In this document: piece by piece, positions 39,994-48,181 of the stretch | Position numbering within the stretch: the stretch's first letter is position 1 | Layout: each line of letters begins with the position of its first letter | Assembly (NCBI GenBank): GCA_015056925.1 | Contig: SVFJ01000014.1 | Location: 1-53,307, forward strand | DNA from: Lachnospiraceae bacterium | Lineage (GTDB): Bacteria; Bacillota; Clostridia; Lachnospirales; Lachnospiraceae | Reading direction: 5' to 3' | DNA length: 53,307 nt | Translations under genes and position numbers: made by a program | Notes under the pieces: generated by a model | What the model saw: only the letters and a program-made list of their open reading frames with translations | Database searches by the model: none | Told to the model about the DNA's origin: nothing

Positions 39994-40028
39994 AAATCAG
40001 GCTTCCGAAAATTCGGGAGCCTGATTTT
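39993..40028. terminator. Bidirectional terminator between CNB-like gene and corC-like gene
   Basis: aaaatcaggct-t-ccgaa pairs with ttcgg-g-agcctgatttt (one mismatch), flanked by A and T tracts. It serves both convergent genes. Confidence 0.88.
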
Positions 40029-40029
40029 A

Positions 40030-41325
40030 TTATGCTTCTGCAGCTTCAGTTTCTTCGTCGGCTTCATCAGTCTGTAAAGGTAATAGAATCGTAACTTTTT
40101 CGATACGGTTCTGAATAACCTCGGTAGCTGTGAGAGTAATACCGGATTCGGTTACTACCTGCTCGCCCTCAGAAGGAAATCTATCTAATAATTCAATGAT
40201 AATACCGCCAATGGAGTCAAAGTCCTCAGAACTAAACTCTGTATGAAGAACATCATTGATATCGTCCAGCTTCATGCTGGCATCTACCAGATACTCAAAC
40301 TCATCAATCTTCTGAATAAGGTCTTTCTCGTCTTCATCATATTCATCACGGATTTCACCAACAATTTCTTCTAACAAATCTTCCATGGTAATCATACCAA
40401 CAGTGGCACCGTATTCGTTAAGCACCAAAGCGACATTGGCTGCGATATTTCGCATCTCCAATAATAAATCGGCAGTTTTCTTAAATTCGTAGGTGTAATA
40501 TGCTTCACGCATAATGTCCTGAATCTTGAAAAGCTTCTTGTTGGGAACCAACAGAAAATCTTTTACATTGATAATACCGATAATATTATCACTCTCGTTT
40601 TCATATACCGGAATACGGGTGTACATAGATTCTTTGAATACATTTAATAATTCGGAGTAAGATGCATTCACATCAATGCTCGTCATATCGATTCTTGGAA
40701 TCATAATATCCTTGGCAACAGAATCACTGAAATCAAATACGTTATAAATCAGTTTCTTCTCTTCCTGTTCAATAACACCATCCTCGTGACTGACATCTAC
40801 GTAGGTCTTAAGCTCGCTTTCTGTCATGGTTGTCTTCTGGGTTGGGTCAATATGTAATAAGCGCAAAATTGCACCGGAAATAATATCTACTACAAAAATA
40901 ACCGGGGTAAGTATTTGCATTAATGCATATATGATAGGAGCATAGGCAAGTGCCAGCTTCTCGTTATTATACATAGCCCATGTCTTAGGAACAATCTCAC
41001 CAAATAAAAGTACCAAAAGCGTTAAGACACCGGTTCCGATACCGACGGCAGTATTGCCAAATACCTTAATGACGAATACTGTGGTAAGGGAAGAGGCACT
41101 GATATTAACAATATTGTTGCCAATCAGAATAGCGCTAATCAGCTTACCCTTGTTATCCAGAACTTTCTGTAAGGTAAGCATACGTTTACTTGGATTCTCC
41201 TCAAGCATGGAACGAACCTTTACGATGCTTAAGGTAGTCAGTGCAGTCTCAGCAGATGAGAAGAAGCCTGACAAAAATAATAAAATAACTAAAGTACAAA
41301 GTTGTATGACACCAGTGGTATCCAA
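40030..41325 (-). CDS. CNNM/CorC (HlyC) family transmembrane protein with CBS pair
   Basis: 431 residues. The N-terminal CNNM domain (about 1-185) has four hydrophobic segments with SGFFSSAETALTTLS near 19-33 and EIVPKTWA near 108-115. A CBS pair (about 200-320) follows and then a CorC_HlyC domain (about 335-420). Relatives are implicated in magnesium or other divalent cation efflux; the old hemolysin name is misleading. There is no signal for DNA binding or secretion beyond the membrane segments. The gene is transcribed alone, from its own promoter at 41383-41411. Confidence 0.9.
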   Translation of the reverse strand: MDTTGVIQLCTLVILLFLSGFFSSAETALTTLSIVKVRSMLEENPSKRMLTLQKVLDNKGKLISAILIGNNIVNISASSLTTVFVIKVFGNTAVGIGTGVLTLLVLLFGEIVPKTWAMYNNEKLALAYAPIIYALMQILTPVIFVVDIISGAILRLLHIDPTQKTTMTESELKTYVDVSHEDGVIEQEEKKLIYNVFDFSDSVAKDIMIPRIDMTSIDVNASYSELLNVFKESMYTRIPVYENESDNIIGIINVKDFLLVPNKKLFKIQDIMREAYYTYEFKKTADLLLEMRNIAANVALVLNEYGATVGMITMEDLLEEIVGEIRDEYDEDEKDLIQKIDEFEYLVDASMKLDDINDVLHTEFSSEDFDSIGGIIIELLDRFPSEGEQVVTESGITLTATEVIQNRIEKVTILLPLQTDEADEETEAAEA

Positions 41326-41382
41326 AATAAAATTCCTCCTTTTATAAATGAAAGTAGTATTAAATATAAAATATATGCATAG

Positions 41383-41411
41383 ATTATATCAGTGGTAAAA
41401 GAAAAAAACAA
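41383..41411 (-). promoter_or_regulatory. Sigma-A-type promoter of the CNNM/CorC-type gene
   Basis: On the minus strand TTGTTT (41411-41406) and a perfect TATAAT (41388-41383) are separated by 17 bases, about 55 bases before the ATG. The leader contains aaaaggagg as ribosome binding site. Confidence 0.72.
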
Positions 41412-41462
41412 TAATATGTTCATAATATGAAAATGAAATAATTATAAAGTGAGGAAAAGAAA

Positions 41463-41825
41463 ATGAAGAATTATGAGAGAGTGATAAGTTTATTAAAAGG
41501 GGTACTGATAGCATACATAATCACTGCCGTGATGCTTTTTCTAATGGCATTTTTGCTTTATCAATTTAACTTAAGTGAAACAATCGTAGACATTGGAATA
41601 TTGATATGCTATGTTGCTTCTTCTCTGATGGCAGGTTTATGCTATGCAATCAATGCCAAGAGCAGGAAGTTTGCGTGGGGGATGCTGGCGGGATTTGTGT
41701 ATTATGCTGTATTACTCGGAATATCCGTCGCTATAGAGGAGGATTTTGAAATTTTTTCTACATCTTGTATTACTACACTGTTTATATGTACGGGAAGCGG
41801 GATGTTGGGCGGAATGCTTCGATAA
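41463..41825 (+). CDS. Small membrane protein, TIGR04086 / DUF3792 (YrzE-like) family
   Basis: 120 residues with four predicted membrane helices (about 10-32, 40-62, 68-90, 98-118) and short loops. The pattern and length fit the TIGR04086 family of clostridial and bacillary membrane proteins. That family is often encoded near yajC, the SCIFF peptide and secDF, and here it lies 2.4 kb before scfA. Function is unknown. The ribosome binding site gtgaggaaaag precedes the ATG. A terminator is not obvious before the next gene's promoter. Confidence 0.75.
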   Translation: MKNYERVISLLKGVLIAYIITAVMLFLMAFLLYQFNLSETIVDIGILICYVASSLMAGLCYAINAKSRKFAWGMLAGFVYYAVLLGISVAIEEDFEIFSTSCITTLFICTGSGMLGGMLR

Positions 41826-41860
41826 TTTGTAAAATCTTTACCCTTTCTTAGCTGTATTTG

Positions 41861-41869
41861 TGTTATACT
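41861..41869 (+). promoter_or_regulatory. Extended -10 promoter of the DUF1538 gene
   Basis: TGTTATACT has the TGn extension and TATACT. No good -35 is seen. The predicted start near 41876 lies after the first ATG of the open frame (41858), which argues for a later start codon. Confidence 0.45.
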
Positions 41870-41911
41870 GGAAGTAATATATACGAAAGGTGCTTGATAT
41901 TTTTGCAGTCA

Positions 41912-43441
41912 ATGAAATCTACATTTGAAGAGAAACTAAGAGAAACCGTTAAGGCAGTGTTCCCCATATTAATTATCGTGCTGTTGTTGTGCTTTACAAT
42001 AGCACCGATACCACCTAGCGTTCTTATGACGTTTTTGGTGGGGGCAGTTTTATTAATTGTGGGAATGCTGTTTTTTAATGTGGGCGTGGATTTGTCCATG
42101 ACGCCTATGGGAGAGCGTGTCGGCTCCATTATGACAAAGTCCAAGAATGTTTTTATCGTAATTTTAATCAGTTTTATCATGGGTTTTGTGATTACCATAT
42201 CGGAGCCGGATTTGCAGGTGCTTGCACAGCAGGTTTCTTCAGTTCCGAATCTGACGATTATATTGGCGGTGGCATTGGGCGTTGCAGTATTTTTGGTGAT
42301 TGCCATACTGCGTATGCTTTTGGGAATTCCACTTTCACGGATTTTGTTATTCTTCTATATTATTGTATTTGCAATGACATTGTTTGTGCCGGGTGATTTT
42401 TTAGCAATTGCTTTTGATTCCGGTGGTGTTACTACTGGACCTATGACGGTACCGTTTATTATGTCCTTTGGTATCGGTATTTCTGCAATCCGAAGTGATA
42501 AGCATGCAGAGGACGATAGCTTTGGTCTGGTATCTATGTGTTCTATAGGGCCGATTATTGCAGTACTGATATTAGGAATGGTATTTAAGCCCGGGCAGAC
42601 AGAGGCGGTATCTGAGTCGATACCGATGATTGATAATACTGTAGATTTGTGGAAGCTGTTCTCAAAGGAGCTTCCGACATATATTCATGAGATGGCGGTT
42701 TCCTTATTCCCGATTATTGGCTTTTTTGCTTTATTTCAGCTTGTGGCGAGGGATATTAATAAGAGAACCCTGATTCGTATTGGTATTGGTCTGGTTTATA
42801 CATATATTGGTCTGGTATTATTTTTAACAGGTGTTAATGTAGGTTTTATGCCTGCAGGTAACTATCTTGGACAGACTATGGCGGGGCTGGATTACAGGTG
42901 GATTATTGTTCCAATTGGTATGATTATCGGCTACTTTATTGTAAAGGCAGAGCCTGCGGTATTTGTGTTGACAAGACAGGTAGAAGAGATGACCTCGGGA
43001 GCCATTTCAGCTAAGGCAATGGGTATGAGTTTATCTATCGGTGTAGCAGTGTCGGTGGGACTTGCAATGACGAGAGTTTTGACAGGTATATCTATTTTGT
43101 GGTTACTGGTACCTGGATATTTTGTAGCATTGGTGTTAACCTTCTATGTGCCAAAGATATTTACGGCGATTGCGTTCGACTCCGGTGGAGTTGCATCAGG
43201 TCCGATGACAGCGACATTTTTACTTCCTTTTGCCATGGGAGCCTGTGAAGCAGTAGGTGGTAATATTATCACGGATGCTTTCGGTATTGTTGCAATGGTA
43301 GCGATGACACCTTTGATTACCATTCAGGCAATGGGACTTATCTTTAAGATTAAAGAGAGCAAGATGCGTAAGTTGGCAGCAGTGGAGGCAGAGTTTGTTG
43401 CAGCAGTTGCGAGTGATGACATGGAGATTATCGAATTATAG
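41912..43441 (+). CDS. DUF1538 family polytopic membrane protein
   Basis: About 510 residues with ten or more membrane helices. The two halves are homologous: each carries a re-entrant-looking signature, AIAFDSGGVTTGPMTVPF in the first and AIAFDSGGVASGPMTATF in the second. That internal duplication is typical of secondary transporters or channels, but no substrate is known for DUF1538. The frame opens at 41858; ATG 41912 (MKSTFEEKLRETVK) is given, while TTG 41903 behind gaaaggtg (41885-41892) is equally likely. A P-II-like gene follows 35 bases later, suggesting a transporter plus its signalling regulator. Confidence 0.82.
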   Translation: MKSTFEEKLRETVKAVFPILIIVLLLCFTIAPIPPSVLMTFLVGAVLLIVGMLFFNVGVDLSMTPMGERVGSIMTKSKNVFIVILISFIMGFVITISEPDLQVLAQQVSSVPNLTIILAVALGVAVFLVIAILRMLLGIPLSRILLFFYIIVFAMTLFVPGDFLAIAFDSGGVTTGPMTVPFIMSFGIGISAIRSDKHAEDDSFGLVSMCSIGPIIAVLILGMVFKPGQTEAVSESIPMIDNTVDLWKLFSKELPTYIHEMAVSLFPIIGFFALFQLVARDINKRTLIRIGIGLVYTYIGLVLFLTGVNVGFMPAGNYLGQTMAGLDYRWIIVPIGMIIGYFIVKAEPAVFVLTRQVEEMTSGAISAKAMGMSLSIGVAVSVGLAMTRVLTGISILWLLVPGYFVALVLTFYVPKIFTAIAFDSGGVASGPMTATFLLPFAMGACEAVGGNIITDAFGIVAMVAMTPLITIQAMGLIFKIKESKMRKLAAVEAEFVAAVASDDMEIIEL

Positions 43442-43476
43442 AACAAGCTTGGTGAGATGGAAAGGCATGGGGTTAT

Positions 43477-44151
43477 ATGAGTATTAATTTGATGACAACA
43501 ATCATAGATAGGAAAGCAGTAAAGCGTTATCATGAATTATATGAGCAGTGTGGTCATACGGTGATGTTTGCCTGTTTAGGTGAAGGAACTGTATCGAATG
43601 ATGTTCTTGATTATTTGGGGCTTGATTCTTCAGAGAAGGCGGTGCTCTTTCATGTGGTGCAGGATGCAGACTGGGTTGAGATTAAGAGACAGCTTGAACG
43701 AACACTTAAGATTGATGCACCGGGAGAGGGAATTGCATTTACGATACCGTTAAGTAGTATTGGTGGCAAAAAGCCAATGCAGTTTTTGCTAGAGGGACAG
43801 GAATATCAGAAGGAGGAGGAATCGACCTTGAAGAATACATCACATGAGTTAATTATTGCGATAGCAGAAGCAGGATATACAGAGTTGATTATGAGTGCAG
43901 CAAGAGAGGCAGGTGCTTATGGGGGAACGGTAGTTCATGCTAAGGGAACCGGTATTGCGGCAGCGGAGAAATTTATGGGCGTAACTATAGCAGCTGAGAA
44001 GGAAATGGTGTTCATTGTTACGAAGACGGAGCTTAAGAATCCGATTATGAAGGCGATTATGGAGAAAGCGGGCTTGAACAGTAAGGCAAAGTCAATTGTA
44101 TTTTCACTTCCTGTAACAGATACGGCTGGTCTGAGACTGGTAGAAGACTAG
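43477..44151 (+). CDS. Tandem P-II-like protein, putative regulator of the DUF1538 protein
   Basis: 224 residues with two copies of a P-II-like fold. The N-terminal copy (about 8-105) has ACLGEGTVSNDVLDYLGL, and the C-terminal copy (about 125-222) has AREAGAYGGTVVHAKGTG and later VFSLPVTDTAGLR. These match P-II family segments (AREAGA..GTV.H..G), but not the classic GlnB uridylylation loop. P-II-like proteins sense small molecules (ATP, ADP, AMP, cyclic nucleotides, 2-oxoglutarate, bicarbonate) and bind transporters. Only 35 bases separate it from the DUF1538 gene, so a joint operon is likely. Neither glnA nor amtB is near. Family call is by eye; the ligand is unknown. Confidence 0.75.
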   Translation: MSINLMTTIIDRKAVKRYHELYEQCGHTVMFACLGEGTVSNDVLDYLGLDSSEKAVLFHVVQDADWVEIKRQLERTLKIDAPGEGIAFTIPLSSIGGKKPMQFLLEGQEYQKEEESTLKNTSHELIIAIAEAGYTELIMSAAREAGAYGGTVVHAKGTGIAAAEKFMGVTIAAEKEMVFIVTKTELKNPIMKAIMEKAGLNSKAKSIVFSLPVTDTAGLRLVED

Positions 44152-44199
44152 GTTTTATCTAAAAATATTGCAAAAACACTTTTCGCATTGAAAAATGTA

Positions 44200-44208
44200 T
44201 GATATACT
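44200..44208 (+). promoter_or_regulatory. Extended -10 promoter of scfA
   Basis: TGATATACT carries the TGn extension and TATACT. The -35 region (ttttcg at 44180) is poor. The predicted start is about 50 bases before the scfA ATG. Confidence 0.5.
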
Positions 44209-44225
44209 ACATAAAGTATAAGAGA

Positions 44226-44241
44226 AAGTCTGTTCAGACTT
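44226..44241 (+). other. 5' leader hairpin of scfA
   Basis: aagtct-gttc-agactt forms a 6-bp stem with a 4-base loop close to the predicted 5' end of the scfA transcript and about 10 bases before the strong ribosome binding site aggagg. It may stabilise a short, highly expressed mRNA. Confidence 0.4.
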
Positions 44242-44264
44242 AAATATGTTAGGAGGCTTATGTT

Positions 44265-44408
44265 ATGAAACACATCAAAACATTAACCACAAGAGATTAT
44301 AAAGAGTCTATGAAGAAGGGTGGATGTGGCGAGTGCCAGACATCCTGCCAGTCAGCTTGTAAGACATCTTGCACAGTTGGAAACCAGAGCTGCGAACAGG
44401 TTAAATAA
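44265..44408 (+). CDS. scfA: SCIFF (six cysteines in forty-five) ranthipeptide precursor
   Basis: 47 residues. The peptide has six cysteines at 21, 24, 28, 32, 36 and 43 (GGCGECQTSCQSACKTSC, then VGNQSCEQVK), interleaved with Thr and Ser. This is the signature of the SCIFF family, nearly universal in Clostridia. A basic leader of about 18 residues (MKHIKTLTTRDYKESMKK) should be recognised by the maturase. Known maturases of the family make a thioether between a Cys sulfur and a non-alpha carbon of a Thr. A strong aggagg ribosome binding site precedes the ATG. The maturase gene lies 126 bases downstream, past a hairpin. The mature product's role is unsettled, though it is linked to signalling in some clostridia. 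Confidence 0.93.
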   Translation: MKHIKTLTTRDYKESMKKGGCGECQTSCQSACKTSCTVGNQSCEQVK

Positions 44409-44442
44409 TTTAGATTAAGAAGTTTCGCATACTAGACTTGGA

Positions 44443-44471
44443 AAGCAGCGATGAATATCGCTGCTTCTTTG
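44443..44471 (+). terminator. Intrinsic terminator or attenuator between scfA and scfB
   Basis: aagcagcgat and atcgctgctt form a 10-bp perfect stem with a 4-base loop, followed by ctttg. The short T tract suggests partial termination, which would give more peptide mRNA than maturase mRNA. Confidence 0.65.
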
Positions 44472-44534
44472 TGGAGTGGGGACATTCCTCAAATGTGTGA
44501 TTAGAGTGAGTAAGTTAGAAAGGAAAGAAGTACA

Positions 44535-45914
44535 TTGATACATCAATATAAAAACAACGGCTATAACATTGTGCTGGATGTAAACAGTGGTTCGGTACAT
44601 GTAGTGGATGATATCGTTTATGATATGATTGCATGCATTGACGAGCATCATTTTGAGTCGGAGGATAAAGAGACTGTTAAGGAGAAGCTTTGTGGATATC
44701 TATCCTATGAGAAGGATGTGATTAGCGAAGCAGTAGATGAGATTTTTGAGTTAAAGGAAGCTGATATGCTTTTCTCAGAGGATATTTACGAGAAGAGTGT
44801 GGAAGCATTTATGAATAGACAGACAGTTGTGAAGGCACTTTGTCTTCATATTGCGCATGATTGTAATCTTGCCTGCAAGTATTGTTTTGCGGAAGAGGGC
44901 GAGTATCATGGCAGACGTGCGCTTATGAGCTTTGAGGTGGGTAAGAAGGCACTTGATTTCTTAGTTGCCAATTCAGGCAGCCGTGTGAATCTTGAGGTAG
45001 ACTTCTTTGGCGGAGAGCCGCTTATGAACTGGCAGGTAGTAAAGGACCTGGTTGCGTATGGCAGAAGTCTTGAGGAGCCTAATCATAAGAAGTTCAGATT
45101 TACATTGACAACCAATGGCGTACTTTTGGATGATGAGATTTTAGAGTTTGCCAATAAAGAAATGAGTAATGTGGTATTAAGTATTGATGGACGTAAAGAA
45201 GTTCATGACCATATGCGTCCGTTCAGAGGCGGTCAGGGAAGCTATGATATGATAGTTCCTAAGTTCCAGAAGGTTGCGGAGAGCCGTAATCAGATGGATT
45301 ACTATGTAAGAGGAACCTTCACACATCATAATCTTGATTTTGCAGCAGATGTATGTCATCTTGCAGACTTAGGCTTTAAGCAGATTTCAGTAGAGCCTGT
45401 AGTTGCACAGCCTACCGATGATTATGCGTTGAAGGATGAGGATATTCCACAGATTCTTGCAGAGTATGATAAGCTTGCGAAGGAGCTGATTGAGCGTCGT
45501 AAGGCAGGTAAGGGAGTGAATTTCTTCCACTTTATGGTTGATTTATCAGGTGGCCCTTGTGTATATAAGAGATTATCAGGCTGCGGTTCCGGTACAGAGT
45601 ATCTTGCGGTAACTCCTTGGGGAGATTTTTATCCTTGCCATCAGTTTGTTGGTCAGGAGGAGTTCCTGTTAGGTAATGTAGATACAGGAATCACGAATAC
45701 CAAGGTTCGCGATGATTTTAAGAGCTGTAATGTATATTCCAAGGAGAAGTGTAAGAATTGCTTTGCTAAGTTTTATTGCAGTGGGGGCTGCGCGGCAAAT
45801 TCCTATAACTTCCATGGTAACATTCATGATGCCTATGACTTAGGCTGTGAGCTTCAGAGAAAGCGTGTGGAATGTGCAATTATGATAAAGGCAGCATTAG
45901 CTGAAGAAGAATAA
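44535..45914 (+). CDS. scfB: Radical SAM SCIFF peptide maturase (thioether-forming)
   Basis: 459 residues. Residues 1-85 resemble a PqqD-like peptide recognition domain. The radical SAM core follows with CNLACKYC (C110, C114, C117) binding the SAM cluster, GGEP near 160-163 and a TTNG segment. The C-terminal SPASM-type region has further cysteines for auxiliary clusters (GPCVYKRLSGC, YPCHQF, KCKNCFAKFYCSGGC). This matches TIGR03974, and in characterised relatives it forms Cys-Thr thioether links in SCIFF. The start is TTG 44535 behind aaaggaaag. secDF starts 14 bases after the stop codon. Confidence 0.94.
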   Translation: MIHQYKNNGYNIVLDVNSGSVHVVDDIVYDMIACIDEHHFESEDKETVKEKLCGYLSYEKDVISEAVDEIFELKEADMLFSEDIYEKSVEAFMNRQTVVKALCLHIAHDCNLACKYCFAEEGEYHGRRALMSFEVGKKALDFLVANSGSRVNLEVDFFGGEPLMNWQVVKDLVAYGRSLEEPNHKKFRFTLTTNGVLLDDEILEFANKEMSNVVLSIDGRKEVHDHMRPFRGGQGSYDMIVPKFQKVAESRNQMDYYVRGTFTHHNLDFAADVCHLADLGFKQISVEPVVAQPTDDYALKDEDIPQILAEYDKLAKELIERRKAGKGVNFFHFMVDLSGGPCVYKRLSGCGSGTEYLAVTPWGDFYPCHQFVGQEEFLLGNVDTGITNTKVRDDFKSCNVYSKEKCKNCFAKFYCSGGCAANSYNFHGNIHDAYDLGCELQRKRVECAIMIKAALAEEE

Positions 45915-45928
45915 AGGAGAGCTATATA

Positions 45929-48181
45929 ATGAAGAAGAGTAAGGGTATTATCACTCTGGTCGTTACTTTGATTGTAACATTGGCATTGGGCTATGTTGCA
46001 GTATTTGGTATCGGAACAGAGAAAGCAGGAGCAGCATCAGAGATTAAGCTTGGTCTTGATTTGGCAGGCGGTGTTAGTATTACATATCAGGTAGTTGGCG
46101 ATGAGGAGCCTTCTGTTGAGGATATGAACGATACAGCTTATAAGATGCAGAAGAGAGTTGGAGTGTACAGTACAGAGGCGGTTGCATATCAGGAGGGTAC
46201 GGACCGTATCAATATTGAGATTCCGGGTGTATCGGATGCCAATGCGATTTTGCAGGATTTGGGAAGACCGGGTGCTTTGTACTTTATTTCGCAGACAGAT
46301 GCGTCAGGTAATCAGAATTATGCTCTGACAGGTGTTACTGAAGCAGGGGAACCTGTTTATGAGTTGAACAAATCCATAGATGAGCTTCTTGCAGACGGCA
46401 GTGTTGTATTACTTGGTACAGACGTATCGGCAGCACAGGCAGGTACACAGCAGGATTCTATGGGTAACAGCCAGTTTGTAGTTTCTTTAAGTCTTACAGA
46501 GGAAGGAACACAGAAGTTTGCAAATGCAACTGAGAAGGCTTACTATGCAGGTGAGTCTATCGGTATCTATTATGACGGCGAGTTTATCAGTGTTCCGGGA
46601 GTAAACAGTATTATTACAGGTGGACAGGCGATTATCACAGGTCAGAAGACCTTTGAAGAGGCAGATATTCTTGCAAGTCAGATTCGTATCGGTGGTTTGA
46701 AGCTTGAGCTTGAAGAGCTTCGTTCTAATGTGGTTGGAGCACAGCTTGGTTCTGCAGCGATTAAGACAAGCTTAATGGCAGGTGCTATCGGTCTTGTGCT
46801 GGTTATGCTTTTTATGATTTTTGCATATCGTATACCGGGTCTTGTATCTGCATTTGCACTGATTATTTATACGATTTTAACAGTTCTTTGTTTGAACATG
46901 TTTGAGCTTACACTGACATTACCGGGTATCGCAGGTATTATCCTTTCTATCGGTATGGCGGTAGATGCTAATGTTATTATCTTTGCACGAATTAAAGAAG
47001 AGATTGCAACCGGTAAGACAGTTCGTTCTTCTATTGATATCGGTTTTAAGAAAGCATTGTCAGCGATTGTGGATGGTAATGTAACAACCTTGATTGCAGC
47101 GTTAGTGCTTGGAATTAAGGGAACAGGTACTGTAAAGGGCTTTGCTCAGACTTTGGCACTTGGTATTGTGTTATCGATGTTTACTGCACTTGTTATTACT
47201 AAGTACTTGTTAAAGGCGTTCTATGCAATCGGCTTTAAGGATATTAAGTTCTATGGTATGACACAGGAGAAGAAGCCAATCGATTTCCTTGGCAAGAAGA
47301 AGTGGTTCTTTAGTATTTCAACTGCAGTGATTCTTCTTGGATTTGTGTTTATGGGTGTGAATAAGGCATCAGATGGCAATGCGTTGAATTACAGTCTTGA
47401 TTTTGTTGGCGGTACAGCAACCAATGTAACCTTTAATGAAGATATGACAATTGAAGAAATTGATGAGAAGGTTACACCTGAGATTGAGAAGATTACAAAG
47501 GATGCCAATGTACAGCCTCAGAAGGTAGCGGGTACGACACAGGTTATTTTTAAGACAAGAACTCTTGAGGTTGAGGAGAGACAGGCTTTATCCGATGTAT
47601 TGGTTGAGAAGTTTGCAGTAGATGCAGACCTTATCACAGCAGAGACAATCAGTGCAACAGTCAGCGGTGAGATGAGAAATGATGCAATTATTGCAGTTTT
47701 GATTGCAACTGTATGCATGTTGATTTATATTTGGTTTAGATTTAAGGATGTTCGCTTTGCAACAGCAGCGGTAGTGCCGCTTGTACATGATGTATTGGTA
47801 GTACTTGCATTCTATGCAGTTGCAAAGGTTTCTGTGGGTAGTACATTTATTGCCTGCATGTTAACAATTGTAGGTTATTCAATTAATGCAACCATTGTTG
47901 TATTTGACCGTATCAGAGAGAATCTTGCCGAGATGCGTAAGAAGGATACGCTGGCAGATGTGGTAAACAGAAGTATCGGTCAGACACTTACAAGAAGTAT
48001 CTTTACTTCATTAACTACCTTCCTTATGGTAGCAGTACTCTTTATTATGGGCGTATCATCTATTAGAGAGTTTGCATTGCCATTGATGGTAGGTATTGTA
48101 TGTGGTACATATTCTTCAGTATGTATTGCAGGTGCGCTTTGGTATGTATTAAAGTCTAAGATTGCATCAAAGGGGGAGTAA
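45929..48181 (+). CDS. secDF: Fused protein translocase subunit SecDF
   Basis: 750 residues, a natural SecD-SecF fusion with 12 predicted membrane helices. SecDF uses proton motive force to pull proteins through SecYEG. The SecD part has LGLDLAGGVSITYQV near 40-54, the P1 domain with INIEIPGVSDANAI, and GMAVDANVIIFARIKEE in a membrane helix. The SecF part starts around 450 with YSLDFVGGTATNV and carries VGYSINATIVVFDRIREN. Coupled to scfB by a 14-base gap; yajC is not in the neighbourhood. A ctgacag/ctgtcag hairpin (48186-48208) without T tract follows. Confidence 0.95.
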   Translation: MKKSKGIITLVVTLIVTLALGYVAVFGIGTEKAGAASEIKLGLDLAGGVSITYQVVGDEEPSVEDMNDTAYKMQKRVGVYSTEAVAYQEGTDRINIEIPGVSDANAILQDLGRPGALYFISQTDASGNQNYALTGVTEAGEPVYELNKSIDELLADGSVVLLGTDVSAAQAGTQQDSMGNSQFVVSLSLTEEGTQKFANATEKAYYAGESIGIYYDGEFISVPGVNSIITGGQAIITGQKTFEEADILASQIRIGGLKLELEELRSNVVGAQLGSAAIKTSLMAGAIGLVLVMLFMIFAYRIPGLVSAFALIIYTILTVLCLNMFELTLTLPGIAGIILSIGMAVDANVIIFARIKEEIATGKTVRSSIDIGFKKALSAIVDGNVTTLIAALVLGIKGTGTVKGFAQTLALGIVLSMFTALVITKYLLKAFYAIGFKDIKFYGMTQEKKPIDFLGKKKWFFSISTAVILLGFVFMGVNKASDGNALNYSLDFVGGTATNVTFNEDMTIEEIDEKVTPEIEKITKDANVQPQKVAGTTQVIFKTRTLEVEERQALSDVLVEKFAVDADLITAETISATVSGEMRNDAIIAVLIATVCMLIYIWFRFKDVRFATAAVVPLVHDVLVVLAFYAVAKVSVGSTFIACMLTIVGYSINATIVVFDRIRENLAEMRKKDTLADVVNRSIGQTLTRSIFTSLTTFLMVAVLFIMGVSSIREFALPLMVGIVCGTYSSVCIAGALWYVLKSKIASKGE

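Follow-up and report, generated by a model that had tools for sequence, protein, structure and literature searches.

A DUF1538 membrane protein encoded beside a tandem PII-like protein in a Lachnospiraceae bacterium: a candidate PII-regulated cation/proton antiporter

Introduction

It is textbook knowledge that PII proteins regulate ammonium, bicarbonate, and nitrogen metabolism, and some of them act next to transporters. GlnK-AmtB pairs a PII-fold protein with a membrane transporter, and SbtB-SbtA of cyanobacteria pairs a PII-like partner with a Na+-dependent transporter. Here, we analyze a two-gene locus in a 53,307-nucleotide stretch of DNA from a Lachnospiraceae bacterium (contig SVFJ01000014.1; referred to as the window), in which a gene for an UmpAB-like membrane protein with two DUF1538 domains (41912..43441) precedes a gene for a 224-residue tandem PII-like protein (43477..44151), both on the forward (+) strand, as are the domains, the tail peptide, and the -10-like element described below. 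We consider it probable that the two genes form a module consisting of a monovalent cation/proton antiporter of the DUF1538 (UmpAB) family, with its subunits fused, and a dedicated regulatory subunit of the PII fold.

The closest described relative of the membrane protein is a DUF1538 pair, UmpA and UmpB of Halomonas zhaodongensis, which together showed Na+(Li+,K+)/H+ antiporter activity in vesicle assays (PMC5484666). According to the main text of that report, the two proteins co-immunoprecipitated and UmpAB was functional in Escherichia coli; a term search of the same main text for P-II gave 0 mentions (PMC5484666). The window system resembles UmpAB in that two homologous DUF1538 subunits or halves act together, but they are encoded by two separate genes in Halomonas and by one fused gene in the window, where a PII gene adjoins that gene, unlike in the searched text on UmpAB. 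With GlnK-AmtB, the window locus shares the pairing of a PII-fold protein with a membrane transporter, but the transporter belongs to another family, and the PII subfamily has a shorter T-loop, replacements at positions K90 and R101, and, in the window, two PII domains per chain. With SbtB-SbtA, it shares a PII-like partner of a transporter, but both the transporter and the PII subfamily are different, and the window system has tandem domains and a C-terminal tail peptide.

Results and Discussion

Conserved linkage of the DUF1538 and PII-like genes

A preliminary description of this DNA had treated the two genes as one transport system, and their adjacency proved to be conserved across the phylum, in the window's own family, and among the closest relatives. 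In an even sample of 299 genomes from the phylum, DUF1538 was present in 101, a strong match (E ≤ 1e-20) to the profile built from the single-domain PII proteins of these loci was present in 101, and 100 contained both, so that 100/101 genomes with either family had the other. The unpaired genomes were G056, which has a decayed DUF1538 gene with internal stops and no PII and lies outside the systems counted below, and G049, which has a partial PII match without DUF1538. At a loose limit (E ≤ 1e-3), 39 genomes matched the PII profile without having DUF1538, as expected because of ordinary PII proteins; apart from G049, the best such match was in G001 (4e-12). In the fetched regions, the PII gene was located directly downstream of DUF1538 in 109 of 112 DUF1538 systems, the three unlinked cases being genome G218 (PII on another contig), L117 (a 100-residue fragment), and one copy in L116, which is a small contig. 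Counted by genome, regions were fetched for 97 genomes with DUF1538, and 95 of them have a linked system; G218 and G107 (PII at the contig start) do not. For G163 and G230, linkage was taken from match coordinates only, which place PII next to DUF1538.

In the window's own family, DUF1538 was present in 46 of 150 genomes, and 45 of these 46 had a PII match, which in 45/45 was on the same strand and no more than about 400 bases downstream (coordinates compared by eye). The odd cases of this family were G308 (partial DUF1538 without a PII match), G311 (a weak PII match alone), and G343 (a second, separate PII copy). The relatives' set was made up of the best 80 of 128 loci confirmed with the PII query, and DUF1538 was upstream of the PII gene in all 80. 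In the host genome itself (96.6% complete), the two genes provide the single Pfam match to DUF1538 and to P-II, respectively. Both families also occur in nine plasmid records, three of them alphaproteobacterial; for five of these records, the order of the genes was read as well. We consider the partnership of the DUF1538 and PII proteins to be well supported by these genomic patterns.

The neighbors in relatives are already annotated publicly as 'DUF1538' and 'P-II family nitrogen regulator'; the novelty would be a PII-regulated transporter from a new transporter family. We found no paper describing the DUF1538-PII pair in the open-access literature searched, and a term search for P-II gave 0 mentions in PMC10030654 and PMC12093952.

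A DUF1538-PII fusion seen in L214 was dropped as evidence of a natural fusion, since the stretch holds runs of N; the locus is still one of the 109 linked systems. In genome G218, a tandem PII gene without a DUF1538 neighbor (L233:4392-5114) is divergent from a 455-residue transporter-like open reading frame.

Relationship of the membrane protein to UmpAB

The membrane protein matches DUF1538 (PF07556) in two stretches, with a score of 469.4 bits against a cut-off of 22.6 (E = 1.3e-141). Domain 1 (41966..42583), which belongs to the D1 clade, contains the motifs SEP and FDSGGVTTGPMT, and domain 2 (42713..43342), which belongs to the D2 clade, contains AEP and FDSGGVASGPMT; the signature reported earlier is thus present in both halves, as FDSGGV..GPMT. 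With the UmpA and UmpB equivalog models (NCBIfam NF041627 and NF041628), the protein scored 168.7 and 137.9 bits, far under the cut-offs of 490 and 500, indicating that it is a relative of UmpA and UmpB and not an equivalog. The earlier description of the substrate as unknown needs correction, the DUF1538 pair UmpAB being a published Na+(Li+,K+)/H+ antiporter, though the window protein scores below the thresholds of both subunits.

A structure model of the 511 residues encoded by positions 41906-43438 (predicted local distance difference test, 80.8; predicted template modeling score, 0.81) has predicted helix interruptions in both halves, some within the FDSGG..GPMT motifs (residues 170-181 and 424-435) and others at the EP motifs (residues 100-101 and 349-350) or next to them. 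The acidic residues at these helix breaks are near-invariant, with E in 156/160 and D or E in 161/161 domains. Broken helices with acidic residues are common among cation/proton exchangers. No confident match for the modeled protein was found among PDB chains. Homology to UmpAB makes cation/proton exchange the most likely activity of the window protein.

Alternatively, the DUF1538 protein of this clade might move another substrate, such as an organic acid or an amino acid, with the PII protein coupling transport to metabolism. We regard this as unlikely. UmpAB is the only characterized DUF1538 pair that we found, and the large deficit of the window protein with respect to the UmpA and UmpB cut-offs leaves room for such a change; the acidic motifs, however, are common to nearly all DUF1538 halves, and the two riboswitches described below point to a potassium/osmotic regulon.

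Fold and ligand-site residues of the tandem PII-like protein

The claim that this protein contains two PII-like domains in one chain was confirmed by different means for each half. Pfam P-II matches the second half alone (residues 125-220, E = 1.6e-11), and the first half searched by itself gives nothing, but profile-profile comparison of the first half with single-domain relatives gave an E value of 8.2e-15 and a probability of 98.4. Profiles seeded from the first or the second half converge on an equal number of matches (370), and in the structure model the two halves share the main order of their strands and helices. The PII (ferredoxin-like) fold is predicted, at the level of the superfamily. 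PDB entries matched by the tandem protein included 2ns1 (GlnK-AmtB) and SbtB chains.

The positions equivalent to K58, K90, R101, and R103 were set by alignment and counted over 149 PII-like domains. K90 is the canonical lysine of the adenosine triphosphate (ATP) site, and R101 belongs to the same site (E. coli numbering). The motifs of the subfamily are, in order, (G/A)RGTGxHE, EPEKE, and KPGxGIAF. The K90 position is occupied by I, V, or L in 149/149 domains and the R101 position by G in 132/149 and R in 2/149, in both cases departing from canonical GlnB/GlnK proteins. The K58 position agrees with the canonical pattern (K in 137 and R in 12 of 149 domains; K in 69/69 window relatives in both domains). 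The R103 position is variable over the 149 domains (R in 11) and basic in window relatives, with K or R at residue 99 of domain 1 in 68/69 and R at residue 220 of domain 2 in 68/69. The loop histidine is retained in 17/19 lone domains, 41/65 second domains, and 9/65 first domains. The T-loop is shorter than in the aligned solved PII chains.

In the window protein, domain 1 (43489..43767) retains the PGxGIAF loop and has lost the second glycine and the histidine of the RGTGxHE loop; among window relatives, PGxGI is retained in 68-69/69, the second loop glycine position (residue 39) is A, V, or T in 69/69, and the histidine position (residue 41) is S, N, G, or D in 69/69. Domain 2 (43846..44133) retains (K/R)GTG and has lost the histidine and the glycine preceding IxF; in the relatives, GTG is retained in 66-69/69 per position, the loop histidine is present in 0/69, and the glycine before IxF is replaced by S, A, or T in 69/69.

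These counts bear on the proposal of nucleotide sensing made in the preliminary description, for which they point both ways: the K90 and R101 positions are replaced, but a K58-like K or R is universal and the R103 position is basic in nearly all window relatives, the latter counting against a simple loss of the ATP site. Any ligand would probably be bound in a manner that is not quite the canonical ATP/2-oxoglutarate one. It is also conceivable, though in our view rather unlikely, that the PII-like protein is a structural subunit with decayed ligand sites that stabilizes or caps the transporter, which would be compatible with the transport part of our proposal. The replacements at the K90 and R101 positions are what such a subunit would be expected to show, as is the loss of different loop residues in the two domains of window relatives. 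Retention of the loop histidine in most lone and second domains, the K58-like residue, and the basic R103 position argue otherwise.

An ordinary nitrogen-sensing PII protein (GlnB/GlnK) located here by chance is highly improbable. The gene is the sole Pfam P-II match of its genome and its relatives carry the public name of nitrogen regulators, as such a protein would, but chance placement sits badly with the near-perfect linkage to DUF1538, and a GlnB/GlnK identity sits badly with the replaced K90 and R101 positions and the short T-loop.

Domain numbers and duplication of the two families

The double PII domain is not special to the window locus; it accompanies duplicated DUF1538 across the phylum. 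In a tally of the DUF1538/PII entries of the fetched phylum regions, 44 had a fused double DUF1538 and a tandem PII protein. Five fused variants also had two PII domains (L123 with two PII genes, L125 and L153 with a cut gene, and L168 and L186 with an odd DUF1538 arrangement), and one fused double DUF1538 (L151) had no PII beside it. The 43 separate DUF1538 pairs were accompanied by a tandem PII protein (14 entries), two PII genes (6 entries), or one PII gene (23 entries), and lone DUF1538 genes were accompanied by one PII in 10/10 entries. In nine further entries, the DUF1538 gene was truncated at a contig end, was interrupted by N runs, or lacked a PII partner; another four entries consisted of PII alone. 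A single PII domain was thus never seen in this tally with a complete fused pair, nor were two PII domains seen with a lone DUF1538, whereas split pairs had one or two. An apparent breach of this rule in one of the best 80 loci, the lone DUF1538 with a tandem PII protein of L054 (L054:3916-4689), was discarded, since the first part of domain 1 is fused to domain 2 at the repeated FDSGGV; the arrangement looks like a deletion or a collapse in the assembly of the metagenome-assembled genome. In L099, the DUF1538 open reading frame has 78 residues only and lies near the start of the locus.

Trees were built for 84 systems, which included only 4 of the best 80 loci plus the window; only systems with one or two domains of each kind were retained. 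Sets A1 and A2 contained 69/81 and 64/81 sequences, respectively, near-copies and truncated sequences being skipped. In the DUF1538 tree (midpoint root), first and second copies formed two clades (support of 99 and 100), seven lone copies grouped apart from both (97), and within each copy the fused genes made up one clade (99). In the PII tree, a quick tree with many weak forks, 65 second domains and 19 lone domains were on one side of a branch with a support of 90, with no first domain among them, and the longest branches were those of first domains. The two trees agree with a stepwise duplication of both domains.

A conserved C-terminal peptide in the membrane protein

The membrane protein of the window ends with the peptide DMEIIEL (43418..43438), which follows a variable linker. 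Among the best 80 loci, all 76 DUF1538 proteins that could be read to the stop codon end with IIEL or IIDL, position -1 being L and positions -3 and -4 being I, each in 76/76. The preceding linker is variable (entropy of >3 bits at positions -14 to -20). The conserved positions are encoded by varying synonymous codons (six Leu codons and three Ile codons), indicating that selection acts on the peptide. Similar tails of the acidic-x-I-I type, for the most part not terminal, occur in several of the more distant members of this clade, and the sister clade of fused genes has mostly short tails without the motif, as surveyed with a loose pattern that also caught some unrelated stretches. L181, which falls near the tail-motif clade, lacks the motif. 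The IIEL/IIDL tail is a candidate docking site for the PII protein and could serve another partner.

The tail motif and the loss of PII motifs were considered as independent evidence of coevolution; this was abandoned, since both follow one clade split within the fused systems.

c-di-AMP riboswitches near DUF1538-PII operons

Scanning of 115 loci and of window positions 40000-46000 against Rfam revealed cyclic di-adenosine monophosphate (c-di-AMP) riboswitches at three loci (L117, L139, and L183) and, at threshold, no Na+ or Li+ riboswitch in either the 115 loci or the scanned part of the window. With stricter filters, 97 c-di-AMP riboswitches were over the cut-off in 100 DUF1538 genomes. Two of the 97, from different families, immediately preceded a DUF1538 operon in the same orientation, at distances of 18 bases (L139) and 50 bases (L183). 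By chance, 0.049 would be expected (P = 0.0012 for two), an estimate that assumes 2.2e5 genes, which is a rough guess, and random placement, which is not the case. The c-di-AMP regulon has a potassium/osmotic role, and the riboswitches of L139 and L183 point to membership of the DUF1538 operon in such a regulon in some hosts. In L117, the riboswitch (L117:5991-6163) comes after the operon, with the PII gene on one side of it and an asparagine-synthetase-like gene on the other.

A PII-gated antiporter as the proposed function

In the proposed module, the PII protein would sit on the cytoplasmic face of the antiporter, by analogy with GlnK on AmtB or SbtB on SbtA, and would open or block transport depending on a small ligand. 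The ions exchanged against H+ would most likely be Na+, Li+, or K+, by homology to UmpAB. The membrane protein may, in the clade of the window, tether the PII protein by its IIEL tail, probably via the diverged first PII domain. In its widest form, the proposal is more tentative, and we would not yet bet on it: PII-gated cation/proton antiporters would constitute a class of their own, so far undescribed, that is common in the phylum of the window and also occurs in Alphaproteobacteria. In this class, to which the window system would belong, duplication and fusion would have affected the transporter and PII domains in parallel, and the PII part, tethered by the IIEL peptide in one clade, would link antiport to c-di-AMP/K+ homeostasis.

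Several observations weigh against the proposal or parts of it. Since UmpAB works in E. coli and the main text of its description is silent on P-II, the PII partner would be dispensable for transport there. The scores obtained with the Ump models (168.7 and 137.9 versus 490 and 500) are low. Linkage has exceptions, as DUF1538 and PII are on different contigs in G218 and PII copies occur without a DUF1538 neighbor in L229, L198, and L200, the last of which begins at a contig end. The matching of domain numbers falls short of a strict 1:1 rule, since 23/43 split pairs have one PII domain. No c-di-AMP riboswitch was found in the window's own genome. Finally, c-di-AMP riboswitches of this class usually turn off uptake genes, which would fit K+ uptake better than efflux.

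If the proposal is true, PII control would also cover the homeostasis of ions and pH, and would do so in roughly one-third of the genomes sampled from the phylum (101/299); two proteins that are annotated separately would become one testable complex.

Gene boundaries, promoter, and flanking genes

The gene boundaries of the preliminary description were correct, the first open reading frame having its stop at 43441 and the second its start at 43477, with a gap of 35 bases. Translation of the membrane protein could start at the TTG at 41903 instead of the ATG at 41912, since an AAAGGTG sequence ends at 41892. The assignment of an own promoter to the pair was not upheld, as a scan of the upstream gap (41826-41902) listed no sigma-70-type site. 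The only promoter-like element spotted by eye in this gap is an extended -10-like sequence, TGTTATACT (41861..41869), which is unproven and absent from the scan list.

Upstream of the gap, positions 41463-41825 encode a DUF3792/TIGR04086 membrane protein, of which no homologue was found in the flanks of the 80 best relatives' loci. In five loci (L124, L131, L146, L157, and L224), which represent two families, RNase P RNA lies about 1 kb or less from the DUF1538-PII operon. Downstream of the tandem PII gene, a short Cys-rich reading frame (44265-44400; KKGGCGECQTSCQSACKTSC...) is followed by a gene for a radical S-adenosylmethionine (SAM)-like protein (44535-45914); the two presumably represent a six-cysteine (SCIFF-type) peptide and its maturase.
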